Source: Odiellus spinosus
Lineage: Eukaryota; Arthropoda; Arachnida; Opiliones; Phalangiidae
Length of the DNA: 64,000 nucleotides
Assembly: GCA_963920705.1 (NCBI GenBank)
Contig: OY987230.1
Location: 3,348,001-3,412,000, forward strand
Direction of reading: 5' to 3'
Part shown: piece by piece, positions 284 to 64,000 of the stretch
Layout of the letters: each line of letters opens with the position of its first letter
How positions within the stretch are numbered: the first letter of the stretch is position 1
Translations under genes and position numbers: made by a program
Notes under the pieces: generated by a model
Told to the model about the DNA's origin: nothing
Seen by the model: the letters and a program-made list of their open reading frames with translations, nothing else
Databases searched by the model: none

Positions 284-326
284 CAAAATTGTGACAAATA
301 TAAAATTGGTTAAAATAAAGCAAAAA

Positions 327-23808: not shown

Positions 23809-23928
23809 AATCCGTTGAAAAACATGGAAAATATGGACAATTCAAAAAACATCTAATATCAAAAAGCGAATTTTTAAAATCTGAAATTTGACTATTTTGA
23901 TATTGTATGATTTCTTGAATTGGCCATA

Positions 23929-24224
23929 TTTTCCATGTTTTTCAATGGATTTTCCAAAACTCTTGTTTTTTAGATAGTCCAATATTTGCTCTTTCGAGTG
24001 GTCTTAATTTTGTCTAAATTGCTTAAAAATCAAAAGTTTTGTGTCCATTTTAATCCAATAATCTTGGATTTTTAAGCGTTTTTGCTTAATTTTAACCAAT
24101 TTTATATTTGTCACAATTTTGCAATTTAGACAAAACCAAAGTCATTCGAAAGAGCAATTAATGGACAGTCTAATTAATAAGAGTTTTCAAAAATCCGTTG
24201 AAAAACAAGAAAAATATGGCCAAT
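23929..24224 (-). repeat. Orientation block 2 (-), less than one unit
   Basis: After the switch in CCATATTTT the sequence reads arm A, linker and arm B in reverse. It includes ATAGTCCAATATTTG and CTAAATTGCTTAAAA, unusual forms for arm A. The unit spanning the switch has A sequence on both sides of its core. Confidence 0.82.
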
Positions 24225-24580
24225 TCAAAAAACATCTAATATCAAAAAGCGAATTTTTAAAATCTGAAATTTGACTATTTTGATATTGTATGGTTTCTTG
24301 AATTTACCATATTTTTCTTGTTTTTCAACGGATTTTTGAAAACTCTTATTATTTAGACTGTCCATTAATTGCTCTTTCGAATGACTTTGGTTTTGTCTAA
24401 ATTGCAAAATTGTGACAAATATAAAATTGATTAAAATTAAGCAAAAACACTTAAAAATCCAAGATTATTGGATTCAAATGGACACAAAACTTTTGAATTT
24501 TAAGCGATTTAGACAAAATTAAGACCACTCGAAAGAGCAAATATTGGTCTATCTGAAAATCAAGAGTTTTGGAAAATCCG
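24225..24580 (+). repeat. Orientation block 3 (+), about one unit
   Basis: The switch lies in CAATTCAA (24221-24229), where reversed arm B becomes the inner end of arm A. A nearly complete + unit follows, with private changes AATTTACCATA and TTTTGAATTTTAAG. The block ends inside the shared 18-mer at 24573-24590, where A becomes reversed B. Confidence 0.82.
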
Positions 24581-27500
24581 TTGAAAAACAAGAAAAATAT
24601 GGCCAATTCAAGAAATCATACAATATCAAAATAGTCAAATTTCAGATTTTAAAAATTCGCTTTTTGATATTAGATGTTTTTTGAATTGTCCATATTTTCC
24701 ATGTTTTTCAACGGATTTTCCAAAACTCTTGTTTTTTAGATAGACCAATATTTGCTCTTTCGAGTAGTCTTAATTTTGTCTAAATCGCTTAAAAATCAAA
24801 AGTTTTGTGTCCATTTGAATCCAATAATCTTGGATTTTTAAGTGTTTTTGCTTTATTTTAACCAATTTTATATTTGTCACAATTTTGCAATTTAGACAAA
24901 ACCAAAGTCATTCGAAAGAGCAATTAATGGACAGTCTAAATAATAAGAGTTTTCAAAAATCCGTTGAAAAACAAGAAAAATATGGCCAATTCAAGAAATC
25001 ATAGAATATCAAAATAGTCAAATTTCAGATTTTCAAAATTCGCTTTTTGATATTAGATGCTTGTTGAATTGTCCATATTTTCCATGTTTTTCAACGGATT
25101 TTCCAAAACTCTTGTTTTTTAGATAGACCAATATTTGCTCTTTCGAGTGGTCTTAATTTTGTCTAAATCGCTTAAAAATCAAAAGTTTTGTGTCCATTTG
25201 AATCCAATAATCTTGGATTTTTAAGTGTTTTTGCTTTATTTTAACCAATTTTATATTTGTCACAATTTTGCAATTTAGACAAAACCAAAGTCATTCGAAA
25301 GAGCAATTAATGGACAGTCTAAATAATAAAAGTTTTCAAAAATCCGTTGAAAAACAAGAAAAATATGGCCAATTCAAGAAATCATAGAATATCAAAATAG
25401 TCAAATTTCAGATTTTCAAAATTCGCGTTTTGATATTAGATGCTTTTTGAATTGTCCATATTTTCCATGTTTTTCAACGGATTTTCCAAAACTCTTGTTT
25501 TTTAGATAGACCAATATTTGCTCTTTCGAGTGGTCTTAATTTTGTCTAAATCGCTTAAAAATCAAAAGTTTTGTGTCCATTTGAATCCAATAATCTTGGA
25601 TTTTTAAGCGTTTTTGCTTAATTTTAACCAATTTTATATTTGTCACAATTTTGCAATTTAGACAAAACCAAAGTCATTCGAAAGAGCAATTAATGGACAG
25701 TCTAAATAATAAGAGTTTTCAAAAATCCGTTGAAAAACAAGAAAAATATGGCCAATTCAAGAAATCATAGAATATCAAAATAGTCAAATTTCAGATTTTC
25801 AAAATTCGCTTTTCGATATTAGATGTTTTTTGAATTGTCCATATTTTCCATGTTTTTCAACGGATTTTCCAAAACTCTTGTTTTTTAGATAGACCAATAT
25901 TTGCTCTTTCGAGTGGTCTTAATTTTGTCTAAATCGCTTAAAAATCAAAAGTTTTGTGTCCATTTGAATCCAATAATCTTGGATTTTTAAGCGTTTTTGC
26001 TTAATTTTAACCAATTTTATATTTGTCACAATTTTGCAATTTAGACAAAACCAAAGTCATTCGAAAGAGCAATTAATGAACAGTCTAAATAATAAGAGTT
26101 TTCAAAAATCCGTTGAAAAACAAGAAAAATATGGCCAATTCAAGAAATCATAGAATATCAAAATAGTCAAATTTCAGATTTTAAAAATTCGCTTTTTGAT
26201 ATTAGATGTTTTTTGAATTGTCCATATTTTCCATGTTTTTCAACGGATTTTCCAAAACTCTTGTTTTTTAGATAGACCAATATTTGCTCTTTCGAGTAGT
26301 CTTAATTTTGTCTAAATCGCTTAAAAATCAAAAGTTTTGTGTCCATTTGAATCCAATAATCTTGGATTTTTAAGTGTTTTTGCTTTATTTTAACCAATTT
26401 TATATTTGTCACAATTTTGCAATTTAGACAAAACCAAAGTCATTCGAAAGAGCAATTAATGGACAGTCTAAATAATAAGAGTTTTCAAAAATCCGTTGAA
26501 AAACAAGAAAAATATGGCCAATTCAAGAAATCATAGAATATCAAAATAGTCAAATTTCAGATTTTCAAAATTCGCTTTTTGATATTAGATGCTTTTTGAA
26601 TTGTCCATATTTTCCATGTTTTTCAACGGATTTTCCAAAACTCTTGTTTTTTAGATAGACCAATATTTGCTCTTTCGAGTGGTCTTAATTTTGTCTAAAT
26701 CGCTTAAAAATCAAAAGTTTTGTGTCCATTTGAATCCAATAATCTTGGATTTTTAAGTGTTTTTGCTTAATTTTAACCAATTTTATATTTGTCACAATTT
26801 TGCAATTTAGACAAAACCAAAGTCATTCGAAAGAGCAATTAATGGACAGTCCAAATAATAAGAGTTTTCAAAAATCCGTTGAAAAACAAGAAAAATATGG
26901 CCAATTCAAGAAATCATAGAATATCAAAATAGTCAAATTTCAGATTTTCAAAATTCGCTTTTTGATATTAGATGCTTTTTGAATTGTCCATATTTTCCAT
27001 GTTTTTCAACGGATTTTCCAAAACTCTTGTTTTTTAGATAGACCAATATTTGCTCTTTCGAGTGGTCTTAATTTTGTCTAAATCGCTTAAAAATCAAAAG
27101 TTTTGTGTCCATTTGAATCCAATAATCTTGGATTTTTAAGTGTTTTTGCTTTATTTTAACCAATTTTATATTTGTCACAATTTTGCAATTTAGACAAAAC
27201 CAAAGTCATTCGAAAGAGCAATTAATGGACAGTCTAAATAATAAGAGTTTTCAAAAATCCGTTGAAAAACAAGAAAAATATGGCCAATTCAAGAAATCAT
27301 AGAATATCAAAATAGTCAAATTTCAGATTTTCAAAATTCGCTTTTTGATATTAGATGCTTTTTGAATTGTCCATATTTTCCATGTTTTTCAACGGATTTT
27401 CCAAAACTCTTGTTTTTTAGATAGACCAATATTTGCTCTTTCGAGTGGTCTTAATTTTGTCTAAATCGCTTAAAAATCAAAAGTTTTGTGTCCATTTGAA

Positions 27501-30500
27501 TCCAATAATCTTGGATTTTTAAGTGTTTTTGCTTAATTTTAACCAATTTTATATTTGTCACAATTTTGCAATTTAGACAAAACCAAAGTCATTCGAAAGA
27601 GCAATTAATGGACAGTCTAAATAATAAGAGTTTTCAAAAATCCGTTGAAAAACAAGAAAAATATGGCCAATTCAAGAAATCATAGAATATCAAAATAGTC
27701 AAATTTCAGATTTTAAAAATTCGCTTTTTGATATTAGATGTTTTTTGAATTGTCCATATTTTCCATGTTTTTCAACGGATTTTCCAAAACTCTTGTTTTT
27801 TAGATAGACCAATATTTGCTCTTTCGAGTGGTCTTAATTTTGTCTAAATCGCTTAAAAATCAAAAGTTTTGTTTCCATTTGAATCCTATAATCTTGGATT
27901 TTTAAGCGTTTTTGCTTAATTTTAACCAATTTTATATTTGTCACAATTTTGCAATTTAGACAAAACCAAAGTCATTCGAAAGAGCAATTAATGGACAGTC
28001 TAAATAATAAGAGTTTTCAAAAATCCGTTGAAAAACAAGAAAAATATGGCCAATTCAAGAAATCATAGAATATCAAAATAGTCAAATTTCAGATTTTAAA
28101 AATTCGCTTTTTGATATTAGATGTTTTTTGAATTGTCCATATTTTCCATGTTTTTCCACGGATTTTCCAAAACTCTTTATTTTCAGATAGACCAATATTT
28201 GCTCTTTCGAGTGGTCTTAATTTTGTCTAAATCGCTTAAAAATCAAACGTTTTGTGTCCATTTGAATCCAATAATCTTGGATTTTTAAGTGTTTTTGCTT
28301 AATTTTAACCAATTTTATATTTGTCACGTCTTGGCAATTTAGACAAAACCAAAGTCATTCGAAAGAGCAATTAATGGACAGTCTAAATAATAAGAGTTTT
28401 CAAAAATCCGTTGAAAAACAAGAAAAATATGGCCAATTCAAGAAATCATAAAATATCAAAATAGTCAAAGTTCAGATTTTAAAAATTCGCTTTTTGATAT
28501 TAGATGTTTTTTGAATTGGCCATATTTTTCTTGTTTTTCAACGGATTTTCCAAAACTCTTGATTTTCAGATAGACCAATATTTGCTCTTTCAAGTGGTCT
28601 TAATTTTGTCTAAATCGCTTAAAAATCAAAAGTTTTGTGTCCTTTTGAATCCAATAATCTTGGATTTTTAAGTGTTTTTGCTTTATTTTAACCAATTTTA
28701 TATCTGTCACGTCTTGGCAATTTAGACAAAACCAAAGTCATTCGAAAGAGCAATTAATGGACAATCTAAATAATAAGAGTTTTCAAAAATCCGTTGAAAA
28801 ACAAGAAAAATATGGCCAATTCAAGAAATCATAGAATATCAAAATAGTCAAATTTCAGATTTTAAAAATTCGCTTTTTGATATTAGATGCTTTTTGAATT
28901 GTCCATATTTTCAATGTTTTTCAACGGATTTTCCAAAACTCATGTTTTTTAGATAGACCAATATTTGCTCTTTCGAGTGGACTAATTTTGTCTAAATCGC
29001 TTAAAAATCAAAAGTTTTGTGTCCATTTGAATCCAATAATTTTGGATTTTTAAGTGTTTTTGCTTTATTTTAACCAATTTTATATTTGTCACGTCTTGGC
29101 AATTTAGACAAAACCAAAGTCATTCGAAAGAGCAATTAATGGACAGTCTAAATAACAAGAGTTTTCAAAAATCCGTTGAAAAACAAGAAAAATATGGCCA
29201 ATTCAAGAAATCATACAATATCAAAATAGTCGAATTTCAGATTTTAAAAATTCGCTTTTTGATATTAGATGCTTTTTTAATTGTCCATATTTTCCATGTT
29301 TTTCAACGGATTTTCCAAAACTCATGTTTTTTAGATAGACCAATATTTGCTCTTTCGAGTGGACTAATTTTGTCTAAATCGCTTAAAAATCAAAAGTTTT
29401 GTGTCCATTTGAATCCAATAATCTTGGATTTTTAAGTGTTTTTGCTTTATTTTAACCAATTTTATATTTGTCACAATTTTGCAATTTAGACAAAACCAAA
29501 GTCATTCGAAAGAGCAATTAATGGACAGTCTAAATAATAAGAGTTTTCAAAAATCCGTTGAAAAACAAGAAAAATATGGCCAATTCAAGAAATCATAGAA
29601 TATCAAAATAGTCAAATTTCAGATTTTAAAAATTCGCTTTTTGATATTAGATGTTTTTTGAATTGGCCATATTTTTCTTGTTTTTCAACGGATTTTCCAA
29701 AACTCTTGATTTTCAGATAGACCAATATTTGCTCTTTCAAGTGGTCTTAATTTTGTCTAAATCGCTTAAAAATCAAAAGTTTTGTGTCCTTTTGAATCCA
29801 ATAATCTTGGATTTTTAAGTGTTTTTGCTTTATTTTAACCAATTTTATATCTGTCACGTCTTGGCAATTTAGACAAAACCAAAGTCATTCGAAAGAGCAA
29901 TTAATGGACAGTCTAAATAACAAGAGTTTTCAAAAATCCGTTGAAAAACAAGAAAAATATGGTCAATTCAAGAAACCATACAATATCAAAATAGTCAAAT
30001 TTCAGATTTTAAAAATTCGCTTTTTGATATTAGATGTTTTTTGAATTGTCCATATTTTCCATGTTTTTCAACGGATTTTTAAAACTCTTGATTTTCAGAT
30101 AGACCAATATTTGCTCTTTCGAGTGGTCTTAATTTTGTCTAAATCGCTTAAAAATCAAAAGTTTTGTGTCCATTTTAATCCAATAATCTTGGATTTTTAA
30201 GCGTTTTTGCTTAATTTTAACCAATTTTATATTTGTCACAATTTTGCAATTTAGACAAAACCAAAGTCATTCGAAAGAGCAATTAATGGACAGTCTAAAT
30301 AACAAGAGTTTTCAAAAATCCGTTGAAAAACAAAAAAAATATGGCCAATTCAAGAAATCATACAATATCAAAATAGTCAAATTTCAGATTTTAAAAATTC
30401 GCTTTTTGATATTAGATGTTTTTTGAATTGTCCATATTTTCCATATTTTTCAACGGATTTTTAAAACTCTTGATTTTCAGATAGACCAATATTTGCTCTT

Positions 30501-33500
30501 TCGAGTGGTCTTAATTTTGTCTAAATCGCTTAAAAATCAAAAGTTTTGTGTCCATTTGAGTCCAATAATCTTGGATTTTTAAGTGTTTTTGCTTAATTTT
30601 AACCAATTTTATATTTGTCACGTCTTGGCAATTTAGACAAAACCAAAGTCATTCGAAAGAGCAATTAATGGACAGTCTAAATAATAAGAGTTTTCAAAAA
30701 TCCGTTGAAAAACAAGAAAAATATGGCCAATTCAAGAAATCATACAATATCAAAATAGTCGAATTTCAGATTTTAAAAATTCGCTTTTTGATATTAGATG
30801 CTTTTTGAATTGTCCATATTTTCCATGTTTTTCAACGGATTTTCCAAAACTCTTGTTTTTTAGATAGACCAATATTTGCTCTTTCGAGTGGTCTTAATTT
30901 TGTCTATATCGCTTAAAAATCAAAAGTTTTGTGTCCATTTTAATCCAATAATCTTGGATTTTTAAGTGTTTTTGCTTTATTTTAACCAATTTTATATTTG
31001 TCACAATTTTGCAATTTAGACAAAACCAAAGTCATTCGAAAGAGCAATTAATGGACAGTCTAAATAACAAGAGTTTTCAAAAATCCGTTGAAAAACAAGA
31101 AAAATATGGCCAATTCAAGAAATCATACAATATCAAAATAGTCAAATTTCAGATTTTAAAAATTCGCTTTTTGATATTAGATGTTTTTTGAATTGTCCAT
31201 ATTTTCCATGTTTTTCAACGGATTTTTAAAACTCTTGATTTTCAGATAGACCAATATTTGCTCTTTCGAGTGGTCTTAATTTTGTCTAAATCGCTTAAAA
31301 ATCAAAAGTTTTGTGTCCATTTGAATCCAATAATCTTGGATTTTTAAGTGTTTTTGCTTAATTTTAACCAATTTTATATTTGTCACAATTTTGCAATTTA
31401 GACAAAACCAAAGTCATTCGAAAGAGCAATTAATGGACAGTCTAAATAATAAGAGTTTTCAAAAATCCGTTGAAAAACAAGAAAAATATGGCCAATTCAA
31501 GAAATCATAGAATATCAAAATAGTCAAATTTCAGATTTTAAAAATTCGCTTTTTGATATTAGATGTTTTTTGAATTGTCCATATTTTCCATGTTTTTCAA
31601 CGGATTTTCCAAAACTCTTGTTTTTTAGATAGACCAATATTTGCTCTTTCGAGTAGTCTTAATTTTGTCTAAATCGCTTAAAAATCAAAAGTTTTGTGTC
31701 CATTTGAATCCAATAATCTTGGATTTTTAAGTGTTTTTGCTTTATTTTAACCAATTTTATATTTGTCACAATTTTGCAATTTAGACAAAACCAAAGTCAT
31801 TCGAAAGAGCAATTAATGGACAGTCTAAATAATAAGAGTTTTCAAAAATCCGTTGAAAAACAAGAAAAATATGGCCAATTCAAGAAATCATAGAATATCA
31901 AAATAGTCAAATTTCAGATTTTCAAAATTCGCTTTTTGATATTAGATGTTTTTTGAATTGTCCATATTTTCCATGTTTTTCAACGGATTTTTAAAACTCT
32001 TGATTTTCAGATAGACCAATATTTGCTCTTTCGAATGGTCTTAATTTTGTCTAAATCGCTTAAAAATCAAAAGTTTTGTGTCCATTTGAATCCAATAATC
32101 TTGGATTTTTAAGTGTTTTTGCTTAATTTTAACCAATTTTATATTTGTCACGTCTTGGAAATTTAGACAAAACCAAAGTCATTCGAAAGAGCAATTAATG
32201 GACAGTCTAAATAATAAGAGTTTTCAAAAATCCGTTGAAAAACAAGAAAAATATGGCCAATTCAAGAAATCATACAATATCAAAATAGTCGAATTTCAGA
32301 TTTTAAAAATTCGCTTTTTGATATTAGATGCTTTTTGAATTGTCCATATTTTCCATGTTTTTCAACGGATTTTCCAAAACTCTTGTTTTTTAGATAGACC
32401 AATATTTGCTCTTTCGAGTGGTCTTAATTTTGTCTATATCGCTTAAAAATCAAAAGTTTTGTGTCCATTTTAATCCAATAATCTTGGATTTTTAAGTGTT
32501 TTTGCTTTATTTTAACCAATTTTATATTTGACACAATTTTGCAATTTAGACAAATCCAAAGTCATTCGAAAGAGCAATTAATGGACAGTCTAAATAACAA
32601 GAGTTTTCAAAAATCCGTTGAAAAACAAGAAAAATATGGCCAATTCAAGAAATCATAGAATATCAAAATAGTCAAATTTCAGATTTTCAAAATTCGCTTT
32701 TTGATATTAGATGCTTTTTGAATTGTCCATATTTTCCATGTTTTTCAACGGATTTTTAAAACTCTTGATTTTCAGATAGACCAATATTTGCTCTTTCGAA
32801 TGGTCTTAATTTTGTCTAAATCGCTTAAAAATCAAAAGTTTTGTGTCCATTTGAATCCAATAATCTTGGATTTTTAAGTGTTTTTGCTTAATTTTAACCA
32901 ATTTTATATTTGTCACGTCTTGGCAATTTAGACAAAACCAAAGTCATTCGAAAGAGCAATTAATGGACAGTCTAAATAATAAGAGTTTTCAAAAATCCGT
33001 TGAAAAACAAGAAAAATATGGCCAATTCAAGAAATCATACAATATCAAAATAGTCGAATTTCAGATTTTAAAAATTCGCTTTTTGATATTAGATGCTTTT
33101 TGAATTGTCCATATTTTCCATGTTTTTCAACGGATTTTCCAAAACTCTTGTTTTTTAGATAGACCAATATTTGCTCTTTCGAGTGGTCTTAATTTTGTCT
33201 ATATCGCTTAAAAATCAAAAGTTTTGTGTCCATTTTAATCCAATAATCTTGGATTTTTAAGTGTTTTTGCTTTATTTTAACCAATTTTATATTTGACACA
33301 ATTTTGCAATTTAGACAAATCCAAAGTCATTCGAAAGAGCAATTAATGGACAGTCTAAATAACAAGAGTTTTCAAAAATCCGTTGAAAAACAAGAAAAAT
33401 ATGGCCAATTCAAGAAATCATAGAATATCAAAATAGTCAAATTTCAGATTTTCAAAATTCGCTTTTTGATATTAGATGCTTTTTGAATTGTCCATATTTT

Positions 33501-35258
33501 CCATGTTTTTCAACGGATTTTCCAAAACTCTTGTTTTTTAGATAGACCAATATTTGCTCTTTCAGTGGTCTTAATTTTGTCTAAATCGCTTAAAAATCAA
33601 AAGTTTTGTGTCCATTTGAATCCAATAATCTTGGATTTTTAAGTGTTTTTGCTTAATTTTAACCAATTTTATATTTGTCACAATTTTGCAATTTAGACAA
33701 AACCAAAGTCATTCGAAAGAGCAATTAATGGACAGTCTAAATAATAAGAGTTTTCAAAAATCCGTTGAAAAACAAGAAAAATATGGCCAATTCAAGAAAT
33801 CATAGAATATCAAAATAGTCAAATTTCAGATTTTAAAAATTCGCTTTTTGATATTAGATGTTTTTTGAATTGTCCATATTTTCCATGTTTTTCAACGGAT
33901 TTTCCAAAACTCTTGTTTTTTAGATAGACCAATATTTGCTCTTTCGAGTGGTCTTAATTTTGTCTAAATCGCTTAAAAATCAAAAGTTTTGTGTCCATTT
34001 GAATCCAATAATCTTGGATTTTTAAGTGTTTTTGCTTTCTTTTAACCAATTTTATATTTGTCACAATTTTGCAATTTAGACAAAACCAAAGTCATTCGAA
34101 AGAGCAATTAATGGACAGTCTAAATAATAAGAGTTTTCAAAAATCCGTTGAAAAACAAGAAAAATATGGCCAATTCAAGAAATCATAGAATATCAAAATA
34201 GTCAAATTTCAGATTTTAAAAATTCGCTTTTTGATATTAGATGTTTTTTGAATTGTCCATATTTTCCATGTTTTTCAACGGATTTTCCAAAACTCTTGTT
34301 TTTTAGATAGACCAATATTTGCTCTTTCGAGTGGTCTTAATTTTGTCTATATCGCTTAAAAATCAAAAGTTTTGTGTCCATTTGAATCCAATAATCTTGG
34401 ATTTTTAAGTGTTTTTGCTTTCTTTTAACCAATTTTATATTTGTCACAATTTTGCAATTTAGACAAAACCAAAGTCATTCGAAAGAGCAATTAATGGACA
34501 GTCTAAATAATAAGAGTTTTCAAAAATCCGTTGAAAAACAAGAAAAATATGGCCAATTCAAGAAATCATAGAATATCAAAATAGTCAAATTTCAGATTTT
34601 AAAAATTCGCTTTTTGATATTAGATGTTTTTTGAATTGTCCATATTTTCCATGTTTTTCAACGGATTTTCCAAAACTCTTGTTTTTTAGATAGACCAATA
34701 TTTGCTCTTTCGAGTGGTCTTAATTTTGTCTAAATCGCTTAAAAATCAAAAGTTTTGTGTCCATTTGAATCCAATAATCTTGGATTTTTAAGTGTTTTTG
34801 CTTTCTTTTAACCAATTTTATATTTGTCACAATTTTGCAATTTAGACAAAACCAAAGTCATTCGAAAGAGCAATTAATGGACAGTCTAAATAATAAGAGT
34901 TTTCAAAAATCCGTTGAAAAACAAGAAAAATATGGCCAATTCAAGAAATCATAGAATATCAAAATAGTCAAATTTCAGATTTTAAAAATTCGCTTTTCGA
35001 TATTAGATGTTTTTTGAATTGTCCATATTTTCCATGTTTTTCAACGGATTTTCCAAAACTCTTGTTTTTTAGATAGACCAATATTTGCTCTTTCGAGTAG
35101 TCTTAATTTTGTCTAAATCGCTTAAAAATCAAAAGTTTTGTGTCCATTTGAATCCAATAATCTTGGATTTTTAAGTGTTTTTGCTTTATTTTAACCAATT
35201 TTATATTTGTCACAATTTTGCAATTTAGACAAAACCAAAGTCATTCGAAAGAGCAATT
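24581..35258 (-). repeat. Orientation block 4 (-), about 28 units
   Basis: This is an uninterrupted minus run. The inner end of arm B is mostly GAAATCATAGAAT, unlike the ACCATACAAT form of later blocks. The linker junction varies between CACAATTTTGC and CACGTCTTGGC. A 764-bp duplication (about 31950-33477) carries GACACAATTTT and ACAAATCCAAAG twice. Three successive units near 34032, 34415 and 34798 share TTGCTTTCTTTTAACC at 383-bp spacing, a local single-unit amplification. Confidence 0.9.
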
Positions 35259-35297
35259 AATTGCTCTTTCGAATGACTTTGGTTTTGTCTAAATTGC
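35220..35297. repeat. 78-bp perfect palindrome, copy 1
   Basis: The outer end of reversed arm B runs straight into the outer end of forward arm B around AATT|AATT, centre 35258/35259, with no spacer. The first mismatch on extension is at 35219/35298. The flanks continue to match as inverted sequence for about 330 bp per side with few mismatches, including the shared rarer CTACTCG form. Relative to a B-B hybrid unit about 207 bp of centre is missing. Confidence 0.95.
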
Positions 35298-35586
35298 CAA
35301 GTCGTGACAAATATAAAATTGGTTAAAATAAAGCAAAAACACTTAAAAATCCAAGATTATTGGATTCAAATGGACACAAAACTTTTGATTTTTAAGCGAT
35401 TTAGACAAAATTAAGACTACTCGAAAGAGCAAATATTGGTCTATCTGAAAATCAAGAGTTTTGGAAAATCCGTTGAAAAACATGGAAAATATAGCCAATT
35501 CAAAAAACATCTAATATCAAAAAGCAAATTTTTAAAATCTGAAATTTGACTATTTTGATATTGTATGATTTCTTGAATAGGCCATA
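35259..35586 (+). repeat. Orientation block 5 (+), under one unit
   Basis: The block starts at the palindrome centre and ends in CCATATTTT near 35582-35590, where B becomes reversed A. The unit at the end has A-type sequence on both sides of its core (about 35398-35680). Confidence 0.88.
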
Positions 35587-38495: not shown

Positions 38496-38534
38496 AATTG
38501 CTCTTTCGAATGACTTTGGTTTTGTCTAAATTGC
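38457..38534. repeat. 78-bp perfect palindrome, copy 2
   Basis: This is identical to the palindrome at 35220 and lies exactly 3,237 bp downstream, so it was carried by the segmental duplication. Its centre is 38495/38496. Confidence 0.95.
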
Positions 38535-52545: not shown

Positions 52546-54697
52546 CATATTTTTCTTGTTTTTCAATGGATTTTTGAAAACTCTTGTTATTTAGACTGTC
52601 CATTAATTGCTCTTTCGAATGACTTTGGTTTTGTCTAAATTGCCAAGACGTGACAAATATAAAATTGGTTAAAATTAAGCAAAAACACTTAAAAATCCAA
52701 GATTATTGGATTCAAATGGACACAAAACTTTTGATTTTTAAGTGATTTAGACAAAATTAAGACCACTCGAAAGAGCAAATATTGGTCTATCTGAAAATCA
52801 AGAGTTTTGGAAAATCCGTTGAAAAACATGGAAAATATGGACAATTCAAAAAACATCTAATATCAAAAAGCGAATTTTGAAAATCTGAAATTTGACTATT
52901 TTGATATTGTATGGTTTCTCGAATTGGCCATATTTTTCTTGTTTTTCAACGGATTTTTGAAAACTCTTGTTATTTAGACTGTCCATTAATTGCTCTTTCG
53001 AATGACTTTGGTTTCGTCTAAATTGCCAAGACGTGACAAATATAAAATTGGTTAAAATTAAGCAAAAACACTTAAAAATCCAAGATTATTTGATTCAAAT
53101 GGACACAAAACTTTTGATTTTTAAGCGATTTAGACAAAATTAAGACCACTCGAAAGAGCAAATATTGGTCTATCTAAAAAACAAGAGTTTTGGAAAATCC
53201 ATTGAAAAACATGGAAAATATAGCCAATTCAAAAAACATCTAATATCAAAAAGCGAATTTTTAAAATCTGAAATTTGACTATTTTGATATTGTATGGTTT
53301 CTTGAATTGGCCATATTTTTCTTGTTTTTCAACGGATTTTTGAAAACTCTTATTATTTAGACTGTCCATTAATTGCTCTTTCGAATGACTTTGGTTTTGT
53401 CTAAATTGCAAAATTGTGACAATTATAAAATTGGTTAAAATTAAGCAAAAACCCTTAAAAATCCAAGATTATTGGATTCAAATGGACACAAAACTTTTGA
53501 TTTTTAAGCGATTTAGACAAAATTAGACCACTCGAAAGAACAAATATTGGTCTATCTAAAAAACATGAGTTTTGGAAAATCCCTTGAAAATCATGGAAAA
53601 TATGGACGATTCAAAAAACATCTAATATCAAAAAGCGAATTTTGAAAATCTGAAATTTGACTATTTTGATATTCTATGATTTCTTGAATTGGCCATATTT
53701 TTCTTGTTTTTCAACGGATTTTTGAAAACTCTTGTTATTTAGACTGTCCATTAATTGCTCTTTCGAATGACTTTGGTTTCGTCTAAATTGCCAAGACGTG
53801 ACAAATATAAAATTGGTTAAAATTAAGCAAAAACACTTAAAAATCCAAGATTATTTGATTCAAATGGACACAAAACTTTTGATTTTTAAGCGATTTAGAC
53901 AAAATTAAGACCACTCGAAAGAGCAAATATTGGTCTATCTAAAAAACAAGAGTTTTGGAAAATCCATTGAAAAACATGGAAAATATAGCCAATTCAAAAA
54001 ACATCTAATATCAAAAAGCGAATTTTTAAAATCTGAAATTTGACTATTTTGATATTGTATGGTTTCTTGAATTGGCCATATTTTTCTTGTTTTTCAACGG
54101 ATTTTTGAAAACTCTTATTATTTAGACTGTCCATTAATTGCTCTTTCGAATGACTTTGGTTTTGTCTAAATTGCAAAATTGTGACAATTATAAAATTGGT
54201 TAAAATTAAGCAAAAACCCTTAAAAATCCAAGATTATTGGATTCAAATGGACACAAAACTTTTGATTTTTAAGCGATTTAGACAAAATTAGACCACTCGA
54301 AAGAACAAATATTGGTCTATCTAAAAAACATGAGTTTTGGAAAATCCCTTGAAAATCATGGAAAATATGGACGATTCAAAAAACATCTAATATCAAAAAG
54401 CGAATTTTGAAAATCTGAAATTTGACTATTTTGATATTCTATGATTTCTTGAATTGGCCATATTTTTCTTGTTTTTCAACGGATTTTTGAAAACTCTTGT
54501 TATTTAGACTGTCCATTAATTGCTCTTTCGAATGACTTTGGTTTCGTCTAAATTGCCAAGACGTGACAAATATAAAATTGGTTAAAATAAAGCAAAAACA
54601 CTTAAAAATCCAAGATTATTGGATTCAAATGGACACAAAACTTTTGATTTTTAAGCGATTTAGACAAAATTAAGACCACTCGAAAGAGCAAATATTG
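52546..54697 (+). repeat. Orientation block 17 (+), with a 765-bp duplication
   Basis: About 5.6 units. Bases of roughly 52990-53755 recur at 53756-54520, sharing GGTTTCGTC, TTATTTGATTC, AAATCCATTG, ACAATTATAAAA, AAAACCCTT, AAATTAGACC, AAAGAACAAA and GGACGATTC. The block ends at a second copy of the ATATTGATATT join (54693-54702). Confidence 0.87.
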
Positions 54698-55785
54698 ATA
54701 TTAGATGTTTTTTGAATTGTCCATATTTTCCATGTTTTTCAAGGGATTTTCCAAAACTCTTGATTTTCAGATAGACCAATATTTGCTCTTTCGAGTGGTC
54801 TTAATTTTGTCTAAATCGCTTAAAAATCAAAAGTTTTGTGTCCATTTGAATCCAATAATCTTTGATTTTTAAGCGTTTTTGCTTAATTTTAACCCATTTT
54901 ATATTTGTCACGTTTTGGCAATTTAGACAAAACAAAACTCATCGAAAGAGCAAATAATGGACAGTCTATATAATAAGAGTTTTCAAAAATCCGTTGAAAA
55001 ACAAGAAAAATATGGCCAATTCAAGAAACCATACAATATCAAAATAGTCAAATTTCAGATTTTCAAAATTCGCTTTTTGATATTAGATGCTTTTTGAATT
55101 GTCCATATTTTCCATGTTTTTCAACGGATTTTCCAAAACTCTTGTTTTTTAGATAGACCAATATTTGCTCTTTCGAGTGGTCTTAATTTAGTCTAAATCG
55201 CTTAAAAATCAAAAGTTTTGTGTCCATTTGAATCCAATAATCTTGGATTTTTAAGCGTTTTTGCTTAATTTTAACCAATTTTATATTGGTCACAATTTTG
55301 CAATTTAGACAAAACCAAAGTCATTCGAAAGAGCAATTAATGGACAGTCTAAATAACAAGAGTTTTCAAAAATCCGTTGAAAAACAAGAAAAATATGGCC
55401 AATTCAAGAAACCATACAATATCAAAATAGTCAAATTTCAGATTTTAAAAATTCGCTTTTTGATATTAGATGTTTTTTGAATTGTCCATATTTTCCATGT
55501 TTTTCAACGGATTTTCAAAAACTCTTGTTTTTAAGATTGACCAATATTTGCTCTTGCGATTGGTTTTGATTTTGTCTAAATCGCTTTAAAATCAAATATT
55601 TTGTGACCATTTGAATCCAATAATCTTTAATTTTTAAGCGTTTTTGCTTAATTTTAACCCATTTTATATTTGTCACGTTTTGGCACTTTAGACAAAACCA
55701 AAGTCATTCGAAAGAGCAATAAATGGACAGTCTAAATAACAAGAGTTTTCAAAAATCCGTTGAAAAACAAGAAAAATATGGCCAA
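54540..55785. repeat. 3,709-bp duplication, copy 2 (partial)
   Basis: Matches copy 1 closely until about 55785. There the sequence changes to TTCAACAAATC and then to an A arm with TTTTCAAGGGA and CTCATG, unlike copy 1. The copy therefore stops in arm B of a unit. Confidence 0.8.
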
Positions 55786-56251
55786 TTCAACAAATCATAC
55801 AATATCAAAATAGTCAAATTTCAGATTTTCAAAATTCGCTTTTTGATATTAGATGTTTTTTGAATCGTCCATATTTTCCATGATTTTCAAGGGATTTTCC
55901 AAAACTCATGTTTTTTAGATAGACCAATATTTGTTCTTTCGAGTGGTCTAATTTTGTCTAAATCGCTTAAAAATCAAAAGTTTTGTGTCCATTTGAATCC
56001 AATAATCTTGGATTTTTAAGGGTTTTTGCTTAATTTTAACCAATTTTATAATTGTCACAATTTTGCAATTTAGACAAAACCAAAGTCATTCGAAAGAGCA
56101 ATTAATGGACAGTCTAAATAATAAGAGTTTTCAAAAATCCGTTGAAAAACAAGAAAAATATGGCCAATTCAAGAAACCATACAATATCAAAATAGTCAAA
56201 TTTCAGATTTGAAAAAATTCGCTTTTTGATATTAGATGTTTTTTGAATTGG
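54698..56251 (-). repeat. Orientation block 18 (-), about 4 units
   Basis: Copies the start of block 16, including its diverged unit (about 55512-55693). It then has a unit whose A arm (TGAATCGTCC, CATGATTTTCAAGG, TTTGTTCTTTCG) is the reverse complement of the + unit near 53521-53620. A unit present in both orientations here records another flip. Confidence 0.85.
55512..55693 (-). repeat. Diverged unit subtype, - orientation, copy 3
   Basis: Matches the 51803 copy at an offset of 3,709 bp, without the extra T. It was carried by the segmental duplication. Confidence 0.85.
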
Positions 56252-59200
56252 CCATATTTTTCTTGTTTTTCAACGGATTTTTGAAAACTCTTATTATTTA
56301 GACTGTCCATTAATTGCTCTTTCGAATGACTTTGGTTTTGTCTAAATTGCCAAGACGTGACAAATATAAAATTGGTTAAAATAAAGCAAAAACACTTAAA
56401 AATCCAAGATTATTGGATTCAAATGGACACAAAATTTTTGATTTTTAAGCGATTTAGACAAAATTAAGACCACTCGAAAGAGCAAATATTGGTCTATCTG
56501 AAAATCAAGAGTTTTGGAAAATCCGTTGAAAAACATGGAAAATATGGACAATTCAAAAAACATCTAATATCAAAAAGCGAATTTTGAAAATCTGAAATTT
56601 GACTATTTTGATATTGTATGGTTTCTCGAATTGGCCATATTTTTCTTGTTTTTCAACGGATTTTTGAAAACTCTTGTTATTTAGACTGTCCATTAATTGC
56701 TCTTTCGAATGACTTTGGTTTTGTCTAAATTGCAAAATTGTGACAAATATAAAATTGGTTAAAATAAAGCAAAAACACTTAAAAATCCAAGATTATTGGA
56801 TTCAAATGGACACAAAACTTTTGATTTTTAAGCGATTTAGACAAAATTAAGACCACTCGAAAGAGCAAATATTGGTCTATCTAAAAAACAAGAGTTTTGG
56901 AAAATCCGTTGAAAAACATGGAAAATATAGCCAATTCAAAAAACATCTAATATCAAAAAGCGAATTTTTAAAATCTGAAATTTGACTATTTTGATATTGT
57001 ATGGTTTCTTGAATTGGCCATATTTTTCTTGTTTTTCAACGGATTTTTGAAAACTCTTGTTATTTAGACTGTCCATTAATTGCTCTTTCGAATGACTTTG
57101 GTTTTGTCTAAATTGCCAAGACGTGACAAATATAAAATTGGTTAAAATTAAGCAAAAACACTTAAAAATCCAAGATTATTGGATTCAAATGGACACAAAA
57201 CTTTTGATTTTTAAGCGATTTAGACAAAATTAAGACCACTCGAAAGAGCAAATATTGGTCTATCTGAAAATCAAGAGTTTTGGAAAATCCGTTGAAAAAC
57301 ATGGAAAATATGGACAATTCAAAAAACATCTAATATCAAAAAGCGAATTTTGAAAATCTGAAATTTGACTATTTTGATATTGTATGGTTTCTCGAATTGG
57401 CCATATTTTTCTTGTTTTTCAACGGATTTTTGAAAACTCTTGTTATTTAGACTGTCCATTAATTGCTCTTTCGAATGACTTTGGTTTTGTCTAAATTGCA
57501 AAATTGTGACAAATATAAAATTGGTTAAAATAAAGCAAAAACACTTAAAAATCCAAGATTATTGGATTCAAATGGACACAAAACTTTTGATTTTTAAGCG
57601 ATTTAGACAAAATTAAGACCACTCGAAAGAGCAAATATTGGTCTATCTAAAAAACAAGAGTTTTGGAAAATCCGTTGAAAAACATGGAAAATATAGCCAA
57701 TTCAAAAAACATCTAATATCAAAAAACGAATTTTTAAAATCTGAAATTTGACTATTTTGATATTGTATGGTTTCTTGAATTGGCCATATTTTTCTTGTTT
57801 TTCAACGGATTTTTGAAAACTCTTGTTATTTAGACTGTCCATTAATTGCTCTTTCGAATGACTTTGGTTTTGTCTAAATTGCCAAGACGTGACAAATATA
57901 AAATTGGTTAAAATTAAGCAAAAACACTTAAAAATCCAAGATTATTGGATTCAAATGGACACAAAACTTTTGATTTTTAAGCGATTTAGACAAAATTAAG
58001 ACCACTCGAAAGAGCAAATATTGGTCTATCTAAAAAACAAGAGTTTTGGAAAATCCGTTGAAAAACATGGAAAATATAGCCAATTCATAAACATCTAATA
58101 TCAAAAAGCGAATTTTGAAAATCTGAAATTTGACTATTTTGATATTGTATGGTTTCTCGAATTGGCCATATTTTTCTTGTTTTTCAACGGATTTTTGAAA
58201 ACTCTTGTTATTTAGACTGTCCATTAATTGCTCTTTCGAATGACTTTGGTTTTGTCTAAATTGCAAAATTGTGACAAATATAAAATTGGTTAAAATAAAG
58301 CAAAAACACTTAAAAATCCAAGATTATTGGATTCAAATGGACTCAAAACTTTTGATTTTTAAGCGATTTAGACAAAATTAAGACCGCTCGAAAGAGCAAA
58401 TATTGGTCTATCTAAAAAACAAGAGTTTTGGAAAATCCGTTGAAAAACATGGAAAATATAGCCAATTCAAAAAACATCTAATATCAAAAAGCGAATTTTT
58501 AAAATCTGAAATTTGACTATTTTGATATTGTATGGTTTCTTGAATTGGCCATATTTTTCTTGTTTTTCAACGGATTTTTGAAAACTCTTGTTATTTAGAC
58601 TGTCCATTAATTGCTCTTTCGAATGACTTTGGTTTTGTCTAAATTGCAAAATTGTGACAAATATAAAATTGGTTAAAATAAAGCAAAAACACTTAAAAAT
58701 CCAAGATTATTGGATTCAAATGGACTCAAAACTTTTGATTTTTAAGCGATTTAGACAAAATTAAGACCGCTCGAAAGAGCAAATATTGGTCTATCTAAAA
58801 AACAAGAGTTTTGGAAAATCCGTTGAAAAACATGGAAAATATAGCCAATTCAAAAAACATCTAATATCAAAAAGCGAATTTTTAAAATCTGAAATTTGAC
58901 TATTTTGATATTGTATGGTTTCTTGAATTGGCCATATTTTTCTTGTTTTTCAACGGATTTTTGAAAACTCTTGTTATTTAGACTGTCCATTAATTGCTCT
59001 TTCGAATGACTTTGGTTTTGTCTAAATTGCCAAGACGTGACAAATATAAAATTGGTTAAAATTAAGCAAAACACTTAAAAATCCAAGATTATTGGATTCA
59101 AATGGACACAAAACTTTTGATTTTTAAGCGATTTAGACAAAATTAAGACTTCTCGAAAGAGCAAATATTGGTCTATCTAAAAAACAAGAGTTTTGGAAAA

Positions 59201-59590
59201 TACGTTGAAAAACATGGAAAATATGGACAATTCAAAAAACATCTAATATCAAAAAGCGAATTTTGAAAATCTGAAATTTGACTATTTTGATATTGTATGG
59301 TTTCTCGAATTTTTCCATATTTTTCTTGTTTTTCAACGGATTTTTGAAAACTCTTGTTATTTAGACTGTCCATTAATTGCTCTTTCGAATGACTTTGGTT
59401 TCGTCTAAATTGCCAAGACGTGACAAATATAAAATTGGTTAAAATAAAGCAAAAACACTTAAAAATCCAAGATTATTGGATTCAAATGGACACAAAACTT
59501 TTGATTTTTAAGCGATTTAGACAAAATTAAGACCACTCGAAAGAGCAAATATTGGTCTATCTGAAAATCAAGAGTTTTGGAAAATCCGTT
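56252..59590 (+). repeat. Orientation block 19 (+), about 8.7 units
   Basis: GCCAAGACGTGAC linkers at 56349, 57115, 57881 and 59029 give a 2-mer, 2-mer, 3-mer order (766, 766, 1,148 bp). A base is missing in GCAAAACACTT near 59068. Units with GGACTCAAAAC and GACCGCTCG are as in block 15. The block ends in the shared 18-mer (59581-59600), where A becomes reversed B. Confidence 0.88.
59173..59373 (+). repeat. Marker unit shared with 50607-50807
   Basis: This has the same AAAATACGTTG and CGAATTTTTCCATA changes as the unit 8,566 bp upstream, in the same context. Downstream contexts differ: here one more unit follows before the flip. Confidence 0.83.
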
Positions 59591-61228
59591 GAAAAACAAG
59601 AAAAATATGGCCAATTCAAGAAATCATACAATATCAAAATAGTCAAATTTCAGATTTTAAAAATTCGCTTTTTGATATTAGATGTTTTTTGAATTGGCTA
59701 TATTTTCCATGTTTTTCAACGGATTTTCCAAAACTCTTGATTCTCAGATAGACCAATATATTCTCTTTCGAGTGGTCTTAATTTTGTCTAAATCGCTTAA
59801 AAATCAAAAGTTTTGTGTCCATTTGAATCCAATAATCTTGGATTTTTAAGTGTTTTTGCTTTATTTTAACCAATTTTATATTTGTCACAATTTTGCAATT
59901 TAGACAAAACCAAAGTCATTCGAAAGAGCAATTAATGGACAGTCTAAATAACAAGAGTTTTCAAAAATCCGTTGAAAAACAAGAAAAATATGGCCAATTC
60001 AAGAAATCATACAATATCAAAATAGTCAAATTTCAGATTTTAAAAATTCGCTTTTTGATATTAGATGTTTTTTGAATTGTCCATATTTTCCATGTTTTTC
60101 AACGGATTTTCCAAAACTCTTGATTTTCAGATAGACCAATATATGCTCTTTCGAGTGGTCTTAATTATGTCTAAATCGCTTAAAAATCAAAAGTTTTGTG
60201 TCCATTTGAATCCTATAATCTTGGATTTTTAAGCGATTTTGCTTAATTTTAACCAATTTTATATTTGTCACAATTTTGCAATTTAGACAAAACCAAAGTC
60301 ATTCGAAAGAGCAATTAATGGACAGTCTAAATAATAAGAGTTTTCAAAAATCCGTTGAAAAACAAGAAAAATATGGCCAATTCAATAAATCATAGAATAT
60401 CAAAATAGTCAAATTTCAGATTTTCAAAATTCGCTTTTTGATATTAGATGCTTTTTGAAATGTCCATATTTTCCATGTTTTTCAACGGATTTTCCAAAAC
60501 TCTTGTTTTTTAGATAGAACAATATTTGCTCTTTCGAGTGGTCTTAATTTTGTCTAAATCGCTTAAAAATCAAAAGTTTTGTGTCCATTTTAATCCAATA
60601 ATCTTGGATTTTTAAGCGTTTTTGCTTAATTTTAACCAATTTTATATTTGTCACAATTTTGTAATTTAGACAAAACCAAAGTCATTCGAAAGAGCAATTA
60701 ATGGACAGTCTAAATAATAAGAGTTTTCAAAAATCCGTTGAAAAACAAGAAAAATATGGCCAATTCAAAAAACATCTAATATCAAAATAGTCAAATTTCA
60801 GATTTTAAAAATTCGCTTTTTGATATTAGATGTTTTTTGAATTGGCTATATTTTCCATGTTTTTCAACGGATTTTCCAAAACTCTTGTTTTTTAGATAGA
60901 CCAATATTTGCTCTTTCGAGTGGTCTTAATTTTGTCTAAATCGCTTAAAAATCAAAAGTTTTGTGTCCATTTGAATCCAATAATCTTGGATTTTTAAGCG
61001 TTTTTGCTTAATTTTAACCAATTTTATATTGGTCACAATTTTGCAATTTAGACAAAACCAAAGTCATTCGAAAGAGCAATTAATGGACAGTCTAAATAAC
61101 AAGAGTTTTCAAAAATCCGTTGAAAAACAAGAAAAATATAGCCAATTCAAGAAATCATACAATATCAAAATAGTCAAATTTCAGATTTTAAAAATTCGCT
61201 TTTTGATATTAGATGTTTTTTGAATTGG
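59591..61228 (-). repeat. Orientation block 20 (-), about 4.3 units
   Basis: Minus units have scattered private changes (ATTCTCAG, CCAATATATTCTC, TTAATTATGTC, TTTTGTAATTTAG). Bases of about 59.9-60.9 kb reappear at 62.95-64.0 kb with an offset near 3,062 bp (eight units). The block ends at a GAATTGGCC switch. Confidence 0.86.
60767..60783 (+). repeat. Short arm-A patch in a reversed B arm, 1
   Basis: Reversed arm B reads GGCCAATTCAAAAAACATCT, of which the end AAAAAACATCT is arm-A sequence, and then returns to B with ATCAAAATAGTC. The patch is about 17 bp and fits a very short conversion tract between arms. Confidence 0.75.
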
Positions 61229-61887
61229 CCATATTTTTCTTGTTTTTCAACGGATTTTTGAAAACTCTTATTATTTAGACTGTCCATTAATTACTCTTTC
61301 GAATGACTTTGGTTTTGTCTTAATTGCCAAGACGTGACAAATATAAAATTGGTTAAAATAAAGCAAAAACACTTAAAAATCCAAGATAAATGGATTCAAA
61401 TGGACACAAAACTTTTGATTTTTAAGCGATTTAGACAAAATTAAGACCACTCGAAAGAGCAAATATTGGTCTATCTGAAAATCAAGAGTTTTGGAAAATC
61501 CTTTGAAAAACATGGAAAATAGGGACAATTCAAAAAACATCTAATATCAAAAAGCGAATTTTTAAAATCTGAAATTTGACTATTTTGATATTCTATGATT
61601 TCTTGAATTGGCCATATTTTTCTTGTTTTTCAACGGATTTTTGAAAACTCTTGTTATTTAGACTGTCCATTAATTGCTCTTTCGAATGACTTTGGTTTTG
61701 TCTAAATTGCAAAATTGTGACAAATATAAAATTGGTTAAAATTAAGCAAAAACACTTCAAAATCCAAGATTATTGGATTCAAATGGACACAAAACATTTG
61801 ATTTTTAAGCGATTTAGACAAAATTAAGACCACTCGAAAGAGCAAGTATTGGTCTATCTGAAAATCAAGAGTTTTGGAAAATCCGTT
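61229..61887 (+). repeat. Orientation block 21 (+), about 1.7 units
   Basis: The block starts at GAATTGGCC and ends in the shared 18-mer (61879-61895). Private changes are ATTACTCTTTCG, GTCTTAATTGCC, AAGATAAATGG, AATAGGGAC, ACTTCAAAATCC and GCAAGTATTGG. Confidence 0.86.
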
Positions 61888-64000
61888 GAAAAACAAGAAA
61901 AATATGGCCAATTCAAGAAATCATACAATATCAAAATAGTCAAATTTCAGATTTTAAAAATTCGCTTTTTGATATTAGATGTTTTTTGAATTGGCTATAT
62001 TTTCCATGTTTTTCAACGGATTTTCCAAAACTCTTGTTTTTTAGATAGACCAATATTTGCTCTTTCGAGTGGTCTTAATCTTGTCTAAATCGCTTAAAAA
62101 TCAAAAGTTTTGTGTCCATTTGAATCCAATAATCTTGGATTTTTAAGCGTTTTTGCTTAATTTTAACCAATTTTATATTTGTCACAATTTTGCAATTTAG
62201 ACAAAACCAAAGTCATTCGAAAGAGCAATTAATGGACAGTCTAAATAATAAGAGTTTTCAAAAATCCGTTGAAAAACAAGAAAAATATGGCCAATTCAAA
62301 AAATCATAGAATATCAAAATAGTCAAATTTCAGATTTTCAAAATTCGCTTTTTTATTTTAGATGCTTTTTGAATTGTCCATATTTTCCATGTTTTTCAAC
62401 GGATTTTCCAAAACTCTTGATTTTCAGATAGACTAATATTTGCTCTTTCGAGTGGTCTAATTTTGTCTAAATCGCTTAAAAATCAAAAGTTTTGTGTCCA
62501 TTTGAATCCAATAATCTTGGATTTTTAAGCGTTTTTGCTTTATTTTAACCAATTTTATATTTGTCACAATTTTGCAATTTAGACAAAACCAAGGTCATTC
62601 GAAAGAGCAATTAATGGACAGTCTAAATAATAAGAGTTTTCAAAAATCCGTTGAAAAACAAGAAAAATATGGCCAATTCAAGAAATCATACAATATCAAA
62701 ATAGTCAAATTTCAGATTTTAAAAATTCGCTATTTGATATTAGATGTTTTTTGAATTGGCTATATTTTCCATGTTTTTCAACGGATTTTCCAAAACTCTT
62801 GTTTTTTAGATAGACCAATATTTGCTCTTTCGAGTAGTCTTAATTTTGTCTAAATCGCTTAAAAATCAAAAGTTTTGTGTCCATTTGAATCCAATAATCT
62901 TGGATTTTTAAGTGTTTTTGCTTTATTTTAACCAATTTTATATTTGTCACAATTTTGCAATTTAGACAAAACCAAAGTCATTCAAAAGAGCAATTAATGG
63001 ACAGTCTAAATAACAAGAGTTTTCAAAAATCCGTTGAAAAACAAGAAAAATATGGCCAATTCAAGAAATCATACAATATCAAAATAGTCAAATTTCAGAT
63101 TTTAAAAATTCGCTTTTTGATATTAGATGTTTATTGAATTGTCCATATTTTCCATGTTTTTCAACGGATTTTCCAAAACTCTTGTTTTTTAGATAGACCA
63201 ATATTTGCTCTTTCGAGTGGTCTTAATTTTGTCTAAATCGCTTAAAAATCAAAAGTTTTGTGTCCATTTGAATCCTATAATCTTGGATTTTTAAGCGTTT
63301 TTGCTTAATTTTAACCAATTTTATATTTGTCACAATTTTGCAATTTAGACAAAACCAAAGTCATTCGAAAGAGCAATTAATGGACAGTCTAAATAATAAG
63401 AGTTTTCAAAAATCCGTTGAAAAACAAGAAAAATATGGCCAATTCAAGAAATCATAGAATATCAAAATAGTCAAATTTCAGATTTTCAAAATTCGCTTTT
63501 TGATATTAGATGCTTTTTGAATTGTCCATATTTTCCATGTTTTTCAACGGATTTTCCAAAACTCTTGTTTTTTAGATAGACCAATATTTGCTCTTTCGAG
63601 TGGTCTTAATTTTGTCTAAATCGCTTAAAAATCAAAAGTTTTGTGTCCATTTTAATCCAATAATCTTGGATTTTTAAGCGTTTTTGCTTAATTTTAACCA
63701 ATTTTATATTTGTCACAATTTTGCAATTTAGACAAAACCAAAGTCATTCGAAAGAGCAATTAATGGACAGTCTAAATAACAAGAGTTTTCAAAAATCCGT
63801 TGAAAAACAAGAAAAATATGGCCAATTCAAAAAACATCTAATATCAAAATAGTCAAATTTCAGATTTTAAAAATTCGCTTTTTGATATTAGATGTTTTTT
63901 GAATTGGCTATATTTTCCATGTTTTTCAACGGATTTTCCAAAACTCTTGTTTTTTAGATAGACCAATATTTGCTCTTTCGAGTAGTCTTAATTTTGTCTA
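61888..64000 (-). repeat. Orientation block 22 (-), runs off the window
   Basis: About 5.5 units; the array continues past the window end. The last 1 kb is the downstream copy of the roughly 3,062-bp repeat. Private marks include TTTTTTATTTTAGATG, CAAGGTCATTC and CATTCAAAAGAGC, which destroys the TTCGAA site of that unit. Confidence 0.88.
63828..63843 (+). repeat. Short arm-A patch in a reversed B arm, 2
   Basis: This is the same patch as at 60767, about 3,061 bp downstream, inside the repeated segment. The conversion therefore predates that duplication. Confidence 0.75.

Follow-up and report, generated by a model that had tools for sequence, protein, structure and literature searches.

How does a satellite array come to reverse its orientation again and again, and does each reversal record an inversion made on the spot or a copy of an older one? 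The question is raised by contig OY987230.1 (C6 below) of the arachnid Odiellus spinosus (genome of 443 Mb in 286 contigs), where positions 3,348,001-3,412,000, a stretch of 64,000 nucleotides hereafter called the window, consist of a single 383-bp satellite throughout (1..64000; coordinates given without a contig are those of the window). The autocorrelation at a lag of 383 is 0.78, tandem repeats reported by TRF span the window except for 43508-44141, which is also decoded as satellite by the hidden Markov model (HMM) described below, and N is absent. All junctions are known here from assembled sequence. The reading favored below, with a probability of roughly 0.7, is that orientation flips were founded by switching or crossover between the two inverted arms of the unit and were later copied by unequal exchange.

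The palindromic unit and the register of its flips

Comparison of the consensus with its own reverse complement gave the order of parts in the unit: an A arm (unit positions 1-126), a core (about 127-157), a B arm that is an inverted relative of A (158-283), and a linker (284-383). In an example unit these correspond to 385..510 (A, plus strand), 511..541 (core), 542..667 (B, minus strand), and 668..767 (linker); both arms were also delimited by arm alignment, and A by the hairpin fold. The arms are about 83% alike, with 21 differing sites in the 125-bp arm alignment. Folded as single-stranded DNA, one unit reaches -87.5 kcal/mol, compared with -33.7 (sd 4.0) in 100 shuffles (z -13.4), with A and B forming one long stem. 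The unit is an imperfect palindrome, and because of this, plus and minus arrays can be aligned through their A and B arms, being about 71% alike across nearly their full length.

Orientation was decoded with a profile HMM that models the 383-bp unit in both orientations and charges every jump equally, whatever the phase or orientation it leads to; the profile was trained on the window and then used on other stretches. The window yielded two same-strand shifts and 25 flips, and the flips kept their positions when the jump cost was set to each of four values between -12 and -30. The initial annotation had counted 21 large switches. All 14 positions that it gave fall within 9 bp of an HMM flip, and its 21 switches are equated here with what is left of the 25 flips once the four ends of the two 110-bp flips (16919/17029 and 19599/19709) are set aside, a match that we infer, seven of its coordinates being unlisted.

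A flip was taken as in register when the two unit positions sum to 281-283 of 383, that is, when A meets B at the matching place. This is true of 18 of the 25 flips and of 14 of the 21 large ones, which bears out the earlier statement that most switches lie within the A/B homology at matching positions. The blocks at the 18 in-register junctions are the 18-mer AAAATCCGTTGAAAAACA (five), TTGAATTG (nine), CCATATTTT (three), and CAATTCAA (one). The last three all lie within one stretch, TTGAATTG[G/T]CCATATTTT, where the separating base (site 98) is variable in the A arm. The letters shared at in-register junctions number 18, 9 or 8, compared with 6, 7 or 3 at the junctions out of register, which need a microhomology join.

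The same rule was found outside the window. Another eight stretches were decoded. Three lie on C6 next to the window; the other five (C6:20 kb, C6:174 kb, and one each on contigs C261, C215, and C83) were chosen as search matches, and none of them at random. One of the eight is flip-free, and among the flips of these stretches, too, there are copies. Of their 100 flips, 92 are in register: two arm intervals, at unit positions 64-87 and 88-115, take up 71 and 20 of these, and one lies at positions 24-36. Two more C261 stretches (6,477 and 11,451 bp, flip-free) stand outside this tally, and jumps in the final 2.4 kb of the decoded C6 sequence, which lies past the satellite, were ignored. The sequence used came to 250 kb, some 74 kb of it past the satellite, besides short loci. 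Of the eight outside flips that are out of register, seven are copies of one junction on C83 and one lies 40 bp from an assembly gap. The two intervals make up 0.235 of the half unit and hold the longest shared blocks. Window and other stretches taken together, they contain 109 of the 110 in-register flips, and none of the 110 decoded falls in the linker, which supports the earlier placing of breakpoints within the A/B homology.

Chance was evaluated on distinct junction sequences. The 25 flips comprise three in-register sequences, one of them present also as its reverse complement, and three out of register. With five of the 383 phase sums counted as in register (p 0.013), the strictest count, three of six, has a probability of about 4e-5 by arithmetic; four of seven types, with the reverse-complement type kept separate, gives 1e-6, and 12 of the 15 groups defined below gives 1e-20. 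Given register, the preference for the two intervals has a probability of about 0.013 (three of three, by arithmetic), 0.003 (four of four) or 3e-8 (12 of 12).

Copies and founders among the junctions

The 380-bp flanks of same-class junctions were compared with 400 background pairs of the same phase (median identity 0.966, 95th percentile 0.987). Eight junction groups have at least one common flank, at the 94th-99th percentile of the background, and grouping by flank identity gave 15 groups, 12 in register and three out of register. Many window flips thus look like later copies of fewer original ones. The 21 large switches are real in the assembly, and their treatment as 21 separate events was ruled out by the flank comparison and by genome counts.

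Genome-wide, the palindromic junction at 35256 and 38493 has two exact places, and so has the +41/-120 junction, in each case both within the window. The +363/-65 junction has 31, of which 21 are on C83, seven on C215, and three in the window; distances such as 1,296 and 1,679 bp recur between them. On C83 (82,564 bp, of which 10 kb was decoded) the 21 exact copies lie between 6 and 53 kb, and their recurrent spacing indicates that the orientation flip is now part of an amplified unit, a higher-order repeat. Copying by unequal exchange is also seen in a 3,237-bp direct duplication in the window and at C6:3,288-3,298 kb, where pairs of flips repeat with a period of about 4,977 bp.

Exact arms at the 18-mer were counted over the whole genome: 36,512 unswitched A, 49,218 unswitched B, 8,749 mosaics with A head and B tail (a pattern two letters longer), and 7,183 with B head and A tail. 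Mosaics make up 15.7% of these 101,662 exact-match arms, and the window's own 18-mer junctions may be part of a subfamily spread over the genome. That the two mosaics are nearly balanced was weighed as a sign of reciprocity and set aside as uninformative, because plus-to-minus and minus-to-plus flips alternate and most are in register, which forces such a balance. Junction counts in satellites need correction for copies before they are used as counts of events.

Real inversion or inherited orientation

Register alone does not prove inversion, because exchange between parallel plus and minus units, with A paired to B, also yields in-register mosaics and inverts nothing. On such an account a few founding inversions would have been followed by crossover or conversion between parallel units, with no further inversion; it is a possibility to be taken seriously, though one we rather doubt, and exchange of this kind may act beside arm switching. 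The likeness of plus and minus arrays over nearly their whole length would permit it, and arms with an A-B-A patch can be read as its non-crossover products. Core and linker haplotypes were compared with orientation because parallel exchange cannot turn a given core or linker over. At C6:174-184 kb, where half of the arms bear a flip, identical cores are equally frequent in both orientations, as in-place inversion predicts: 14 identical pairs across orientations were found and 13 expected, and at C6:3268-3280 kb 34 were found and 35 expected. Under parallel exchange core orientation would be fixed for ever, yet such pairs occur at the expected rate, and two core haplotypes found only at C6:174 kb, which differ from the commonest by a single base each, are present in both orientations, at distances of 382 and 1,149 bp. 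Most of the cross-orientation sharing in these two stretches involves the commonest core haplotype and is weak evidence. The distance test says nothing for the cores of C6:174 kb (14 of 25 circular shifts reach the observed value) and little for its linkers (4 of 24).

The window itself is intermediate, with 142 pairs of identical cores across orientations (183 expected) and six pairs of linkers (35 expected). Five haplotypes found only in the window (two cores and three linkers, among 582 cores and 609 linkers compared) differ from the commonest by two to seven bases and occur in both orientations, the nearest opposite copies lying 1.8-15 kb apart; real inversion is therefore needed. In addition, the minus stretch 24726-28144 matches the upstream plus array with the order of units inverted. 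It scores 5.0 and 5.0 against copies 4-8 kb and 34-37 kb to the left of the window, and 4.98 against 21533-23549, with null maxima of 2.2-3.5 in six shuffles. A real local inversion, or an inverted duplication, thus took place at least at 24726-28144, and shuffling elsewhere, above all at C6:174-184 kb, looks real on the haplotype comparison. The earlier proposal that exchange between an A and a B arm inverts what lies between them agrees with the in-register mosaics and with the window-only haplotypes, and fails to cover the seven of 21 large switches that are out of register.

A number of results weigh against founding by arm switching, or narrow its reach. Seven of the 25 window flips are out of register, of three kinds: -248/+242 at 35256 and 38493 (6 bp shared), +363/-65 at 43974, 45270 and 46949 (7 bp), and +41/-120 at 50989 and 54698 (3 bp). 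The preference for the two intervals rests, at founder level, on three types, and the intervals were picked post hoc. The flank criterion can both overlook copies and admit chance pairs, 36 pairs having been compared in the largest class, and so the number of founders may be anything from six upward. Among neighboring in-register flip pairs of the window, both ends lie in the same interval in 3 of 10; the other seven, including both core-only pairs, have ends in different intervals, and a single reciprocal crossover therefore fails for most pairs. No identical pair joins the two orientations on C83 (14 expected for cores and 15 for linkers), where all circular shifts and permutations fall below the observed separation, and at C6:20 kb, also separated, nine identical core pairs (28 expected) and no linker pairs (four expected) do so; with orientation tied to haplotype, flips in these two arrays have merely been passed on. 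For the cores of C6:3268-3280 kb the distance test tends toward separation, the observed value being reached in 1 of 30 circular shifts and 19 of 500 permutations, and the evidence from this stretch is best regarded as mixed. Finally, all 12 of the best inverted runs involve the stretch 24726-28144, and no inverted-order match to the plus array was found for the other minus segments of the window.

The lack of cross-orientation pairs on C83 is also what exchange between parallel units would leave behind. On another account, all in-register flips descend by pure copying from one or two ancient mosaic arms, none of them founded in or near the window. The large pool of mosaic arms beside the unswitched ones (8,749 plus 7,183, set against 36,512 plus 49,218) lends color to such descent. 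It is nevertheless unlikely, for two out-of-register junctions have exact copies in the window only, and haplotypes private to the window occur in both orientations. That the switches might be misjoins within a repeat has to be considered, since satellite arrays are prone to assembly error, 200-N gaps lie at C6:3,279,973 and C6:3,470,071, and one outside flip out of register is 40 bp from the first of these. Against this, the window is free of N, one exact junction is present on three contigs, most junctions follow a phase rule that is foreign to misjoins, and flips recur in regular higher-order periods; an artefact is accordingly very improbable.

Bacterial shufflons contain several invertible segments bounded by inverted repeats, which are turned by a dedicated recombinase acting at a fixed site. 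The satellite resembles them in having invertible segments between inverted repeats, and the use of two intervals by 109 of 110 in-register flips might suggest a site-specific recombinase acting on the 18-mer or on the CCATATTTT block. However, the blocks are simply the longest A/B identities, and a run of 18 bp is unsurprising in 125 bp at 17% divergence (estimated chance about 0.6); in addition, one flip lies in a third block at positions 24-36, junctions out of register occur too, and the satellite does not keep to one fixed site. Judged by the positions of the junctions, such an enzyme is hardly credible here. Tentatively, some arrays, and C6:174-184 kb above all, might instead be viewed as a passive eukaryotic shufflon, with every core and linker an invertible cassette flanked by homologous inverted arms, with in-place inversion carried on until orientation is nearly random, and with other arrays frozen; satellite orientation would then be a measurable, array-specific state.

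The arms themselves record two products: single-switch mosaics, which are the flips, and A-B-A patches, present in 32 of 1,246 arms over nine stretches. The patched arms comprise 22 of 238 in the flip-free C6:3,412-3,457 kb, 6 of 46 on C83, and 4 of 329 in the window. The table of A/B diagnostic sites left out sites 53, 56, 98, 110 and 115, which looked polymorphic, single-site runs were taken as point mutations except at site 114, and five B-A-B arms at C6:20 kb were kept out of the patch count, as they could coincide with flips. For template switching between imperfect inverted repeats in yeast, the products described are arm homogenization and spacer inversion (PMC8604942). Both signatures are also seen in the satellite, where spacers are inverted with the switch falling in sequence that the arms share, and where arms are homogenized without inversion; the yeast case concerns single short inverted repeats in genes and the present one tandem arrays (PMC8604942).

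Flip pairs bear on the choice of process. Both ends lie in the same interval in 14 of 17 core-only pairs, the two of the window, which are mutual copies, having ends that differ. Linker-sized pairs include 22 with the same interval (that of 23,924-24,228 among them), 19 with different intervals, and four with an end out of register, and longer pairs include 20, 11, and 24, respectively. Template switching fits pairs of both sorts, because the block by which an arm is left may differ from that by which it was entered, whereas a single crossover fits only pairs with the same interval; for longer segments crossover between inverted arms is possible. The reading preferred here admits both. Flips would mostly be founded by a switch from one arm to the other at corresponding positions of A and B, within the longest shared blocks, probably through replication template switching across the hairpin or through crossover between inverted arms, and such a switch would turn over a core, a linker or a longer stretch. 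A minority would be founded by microhomology joins out of register. Once founded, flips would be copied and spread by unequal exchange and by amplification of higher-order repeats, which would account for many of the identical junctions of the window. The enzymology, the share of crossover and template switching, and the timing are features that we infer from these products.

Array layout, known systems and further segments

Apart from four small segments (eight flips) and the 110-bp core flip in its two copies, the array is plus from C6:3,280 to about 3,372 kb (about 92 kb). Orientation is mixed in the 38 kb that follow, which lie in the window, and C6:3,410 to about 3,457.6 kb (about 48 kb) is minus, without a flip in the 238 segments past the window; the satellite ends at about C6:3,457.7 kb. 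The window is thus the turnaround of a macro-dyad, with multi-kb inverted subarrays that arise from orientation switching and with conserved, repeated inversion-site sequences (six junction sequences for 25 flips). Counted over core and linker segments, flips number 25 of 334 in the window and 8 of 355 and 0 of 238 on its two sides, and the description of the window as a self-shuffling array could not be upheld. Flips occupy 26 of 51 segment boundaries at C6:174 kb, 27 of 62 at C6:3268-3280 kb, and 18 of 52 at C6:20 kb. The contig is 24.9 Mb long, and arrays are located near its beginning and at about 3.3-3.46 Mb.

Macro-dyad satellites were described in Tribolium madens (TmSat1 and TmSat2, with units of 704 and 225 bp), and the authors hypothesized that the inversion originated in ectopic recombination between similar subunits and stated that macro-dyads are documented only in Tribolium (PMC13081366). 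Like the present satellite, those of T. madens have multi-kb inverted subarrays, few and repeated inversion-site sequences, and, in TmSat2, a monomer composed of large inverted halves. The unit is 383 bp here, as opposed to 704 and 225 bp there, and where T. madens has few, highly homogeneous types of inversion site, most flips in O. spinosus fall in two arm intervals in strict register (PMC13081366). Unlike T. madens, O. spinosus also has joins out of register, and one sampled stretch has one flip per two arms (PMC13081366). Inverted repeats within the monomer also occur in the 1061-bp satellite of Tribolium brevicornis (about 470 bp) and the 385-bp satellite of Trichogramma brassicae (about 80 bp), for which arm-mediated orientation switching is unmentioned in the discussion of that paper and which are likened by description only (PMC13081366).

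Among titles and abstract starts in one open-access library, no published report of the 383-bp satellite was found by length or by six 12-13-mers, and the T. madens paper was the only one found on arm-mediated orientation shuffling. The kind of array is already known from the Tribolium macro-dyads; what is added here is register at base level, a microhomology minority, the distinction of founders from copies, and three array states. Orientation switching of satellites has been documented at array scale only in Tribolium, where its origin is a hypothesis (PMC13081366). In O. spinosus the mosaic A/B arms show where the switch points lie, founders and copies are partly separable, and near-random, intermediate and frozen arrays coexist in one genome, which makes the origin of macro-dyads directly testable with long reads in one organism.

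The HMM and the junction letters also define the single inverted segments of the window. The 110-bp inverted core between the A and B arms of one unit (16919..17034, minus) is entered in the 18-mer and left in TTGAATTG, and its second copy (19599..19714, minus) has 380-bp flanks that are 0.992-0.997 identical to those of the first. An inverted linker segment of about 294 bp (23924..24228, minus), with junctions +193/-88 and -178/+105, fits a simple reciprocal inversion between neighboring arms, because both of its ends lie in the same shared stretch. The minus segment 24573..35255 begins with an in-register 18-mer junction and ends in a near-palindrome out of register; over its first 3.4 kb, each successive unit matches the plus array upstream, the order of units being inverted. 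It is followed by a 335-bp plus insert (35256..35590), which opens with the out-of-register palindromic join (ATTAAT; two exact genome copies) and closes with an in-register return. A second copy of the insert (38493..38827, plus), within the 3,237-bp direct duplication, which forms a direct run, has flanks that are 100% identical over 380 bp on both sides. A simple foldback origin of the two was rejected: the palindrome is perfect for just 39 bp per side and the 335-bp arms are 96.1% alike, which equals the ordinary divergence between units and thus points to a join of two different units, or to an old one.

Between 43974 and 48065 there are three alternations of plus and minus, starting with +363/-65 junctions (43974, 45270 and 46949) and returning with -105/+178. 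The minus segment 50986..52543 begins with the +41/-120 junction (3 bp shared; two exact genome copies), and its second copy (54695..56250, minus) has a right flank that is 100% identical over 380 bp and a left flank that is 97.1% identical. The minus segment 59581..61227 has both ends in register (18-mer and TTGAATTG), and at 61878..64000, as decoded in the window and the neighboring stretch, begins the minus domain that is flip-free to about C6:3,457.6 kb. One of the same-strand shifts (8550..8553, plus; +124/+317) shares the 4 bp AAGC and amounts to a 192-bp internal deletion; it is repeated at 9890.

Several other observations were made along the way. At C6:20-30, 174-184 and 3268-3280 kb, the consensus of the A heads is the variant AGACCAAATTTT on one strand and, on the opposite strand, the usual AGAGCAAATATT, so that strand-linked markers exist even in highly flipped arrays. 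Past the end of the satellite, a repeat of about 56 bp seems to occupy C6:3,458.0-3,460.0 kb, as judged only by how the HMM jumps are spaced. The satellite also occurs in short dispersed copies, whose unswitched A arms are on the minus strand at the left and on the plus strand at the right, at five loci on four contigs: C1:33,020,926-33,023,123, C5:18,269,149-18,271,346, C3:23,306,514-23,309,980, C5:7,089,652-7,093,118, and C2:2,549,894-2,552,470. Their internal spacing is kept across places (1,275, 504 and 383 bp at two, 2,667 and 764 bp at two others), and they look like a dispersed element with satellite in inverted halves. COX1 on the mitochondrial contig reads in the invertebrate mitochondrial code (code 5), and on C17 (13.7 Mb) several partial COX1 copies, probably mitochondrial insertions, lie at about 1.1, 3.0, 3.1, 4.2 and 4.4 Mb.

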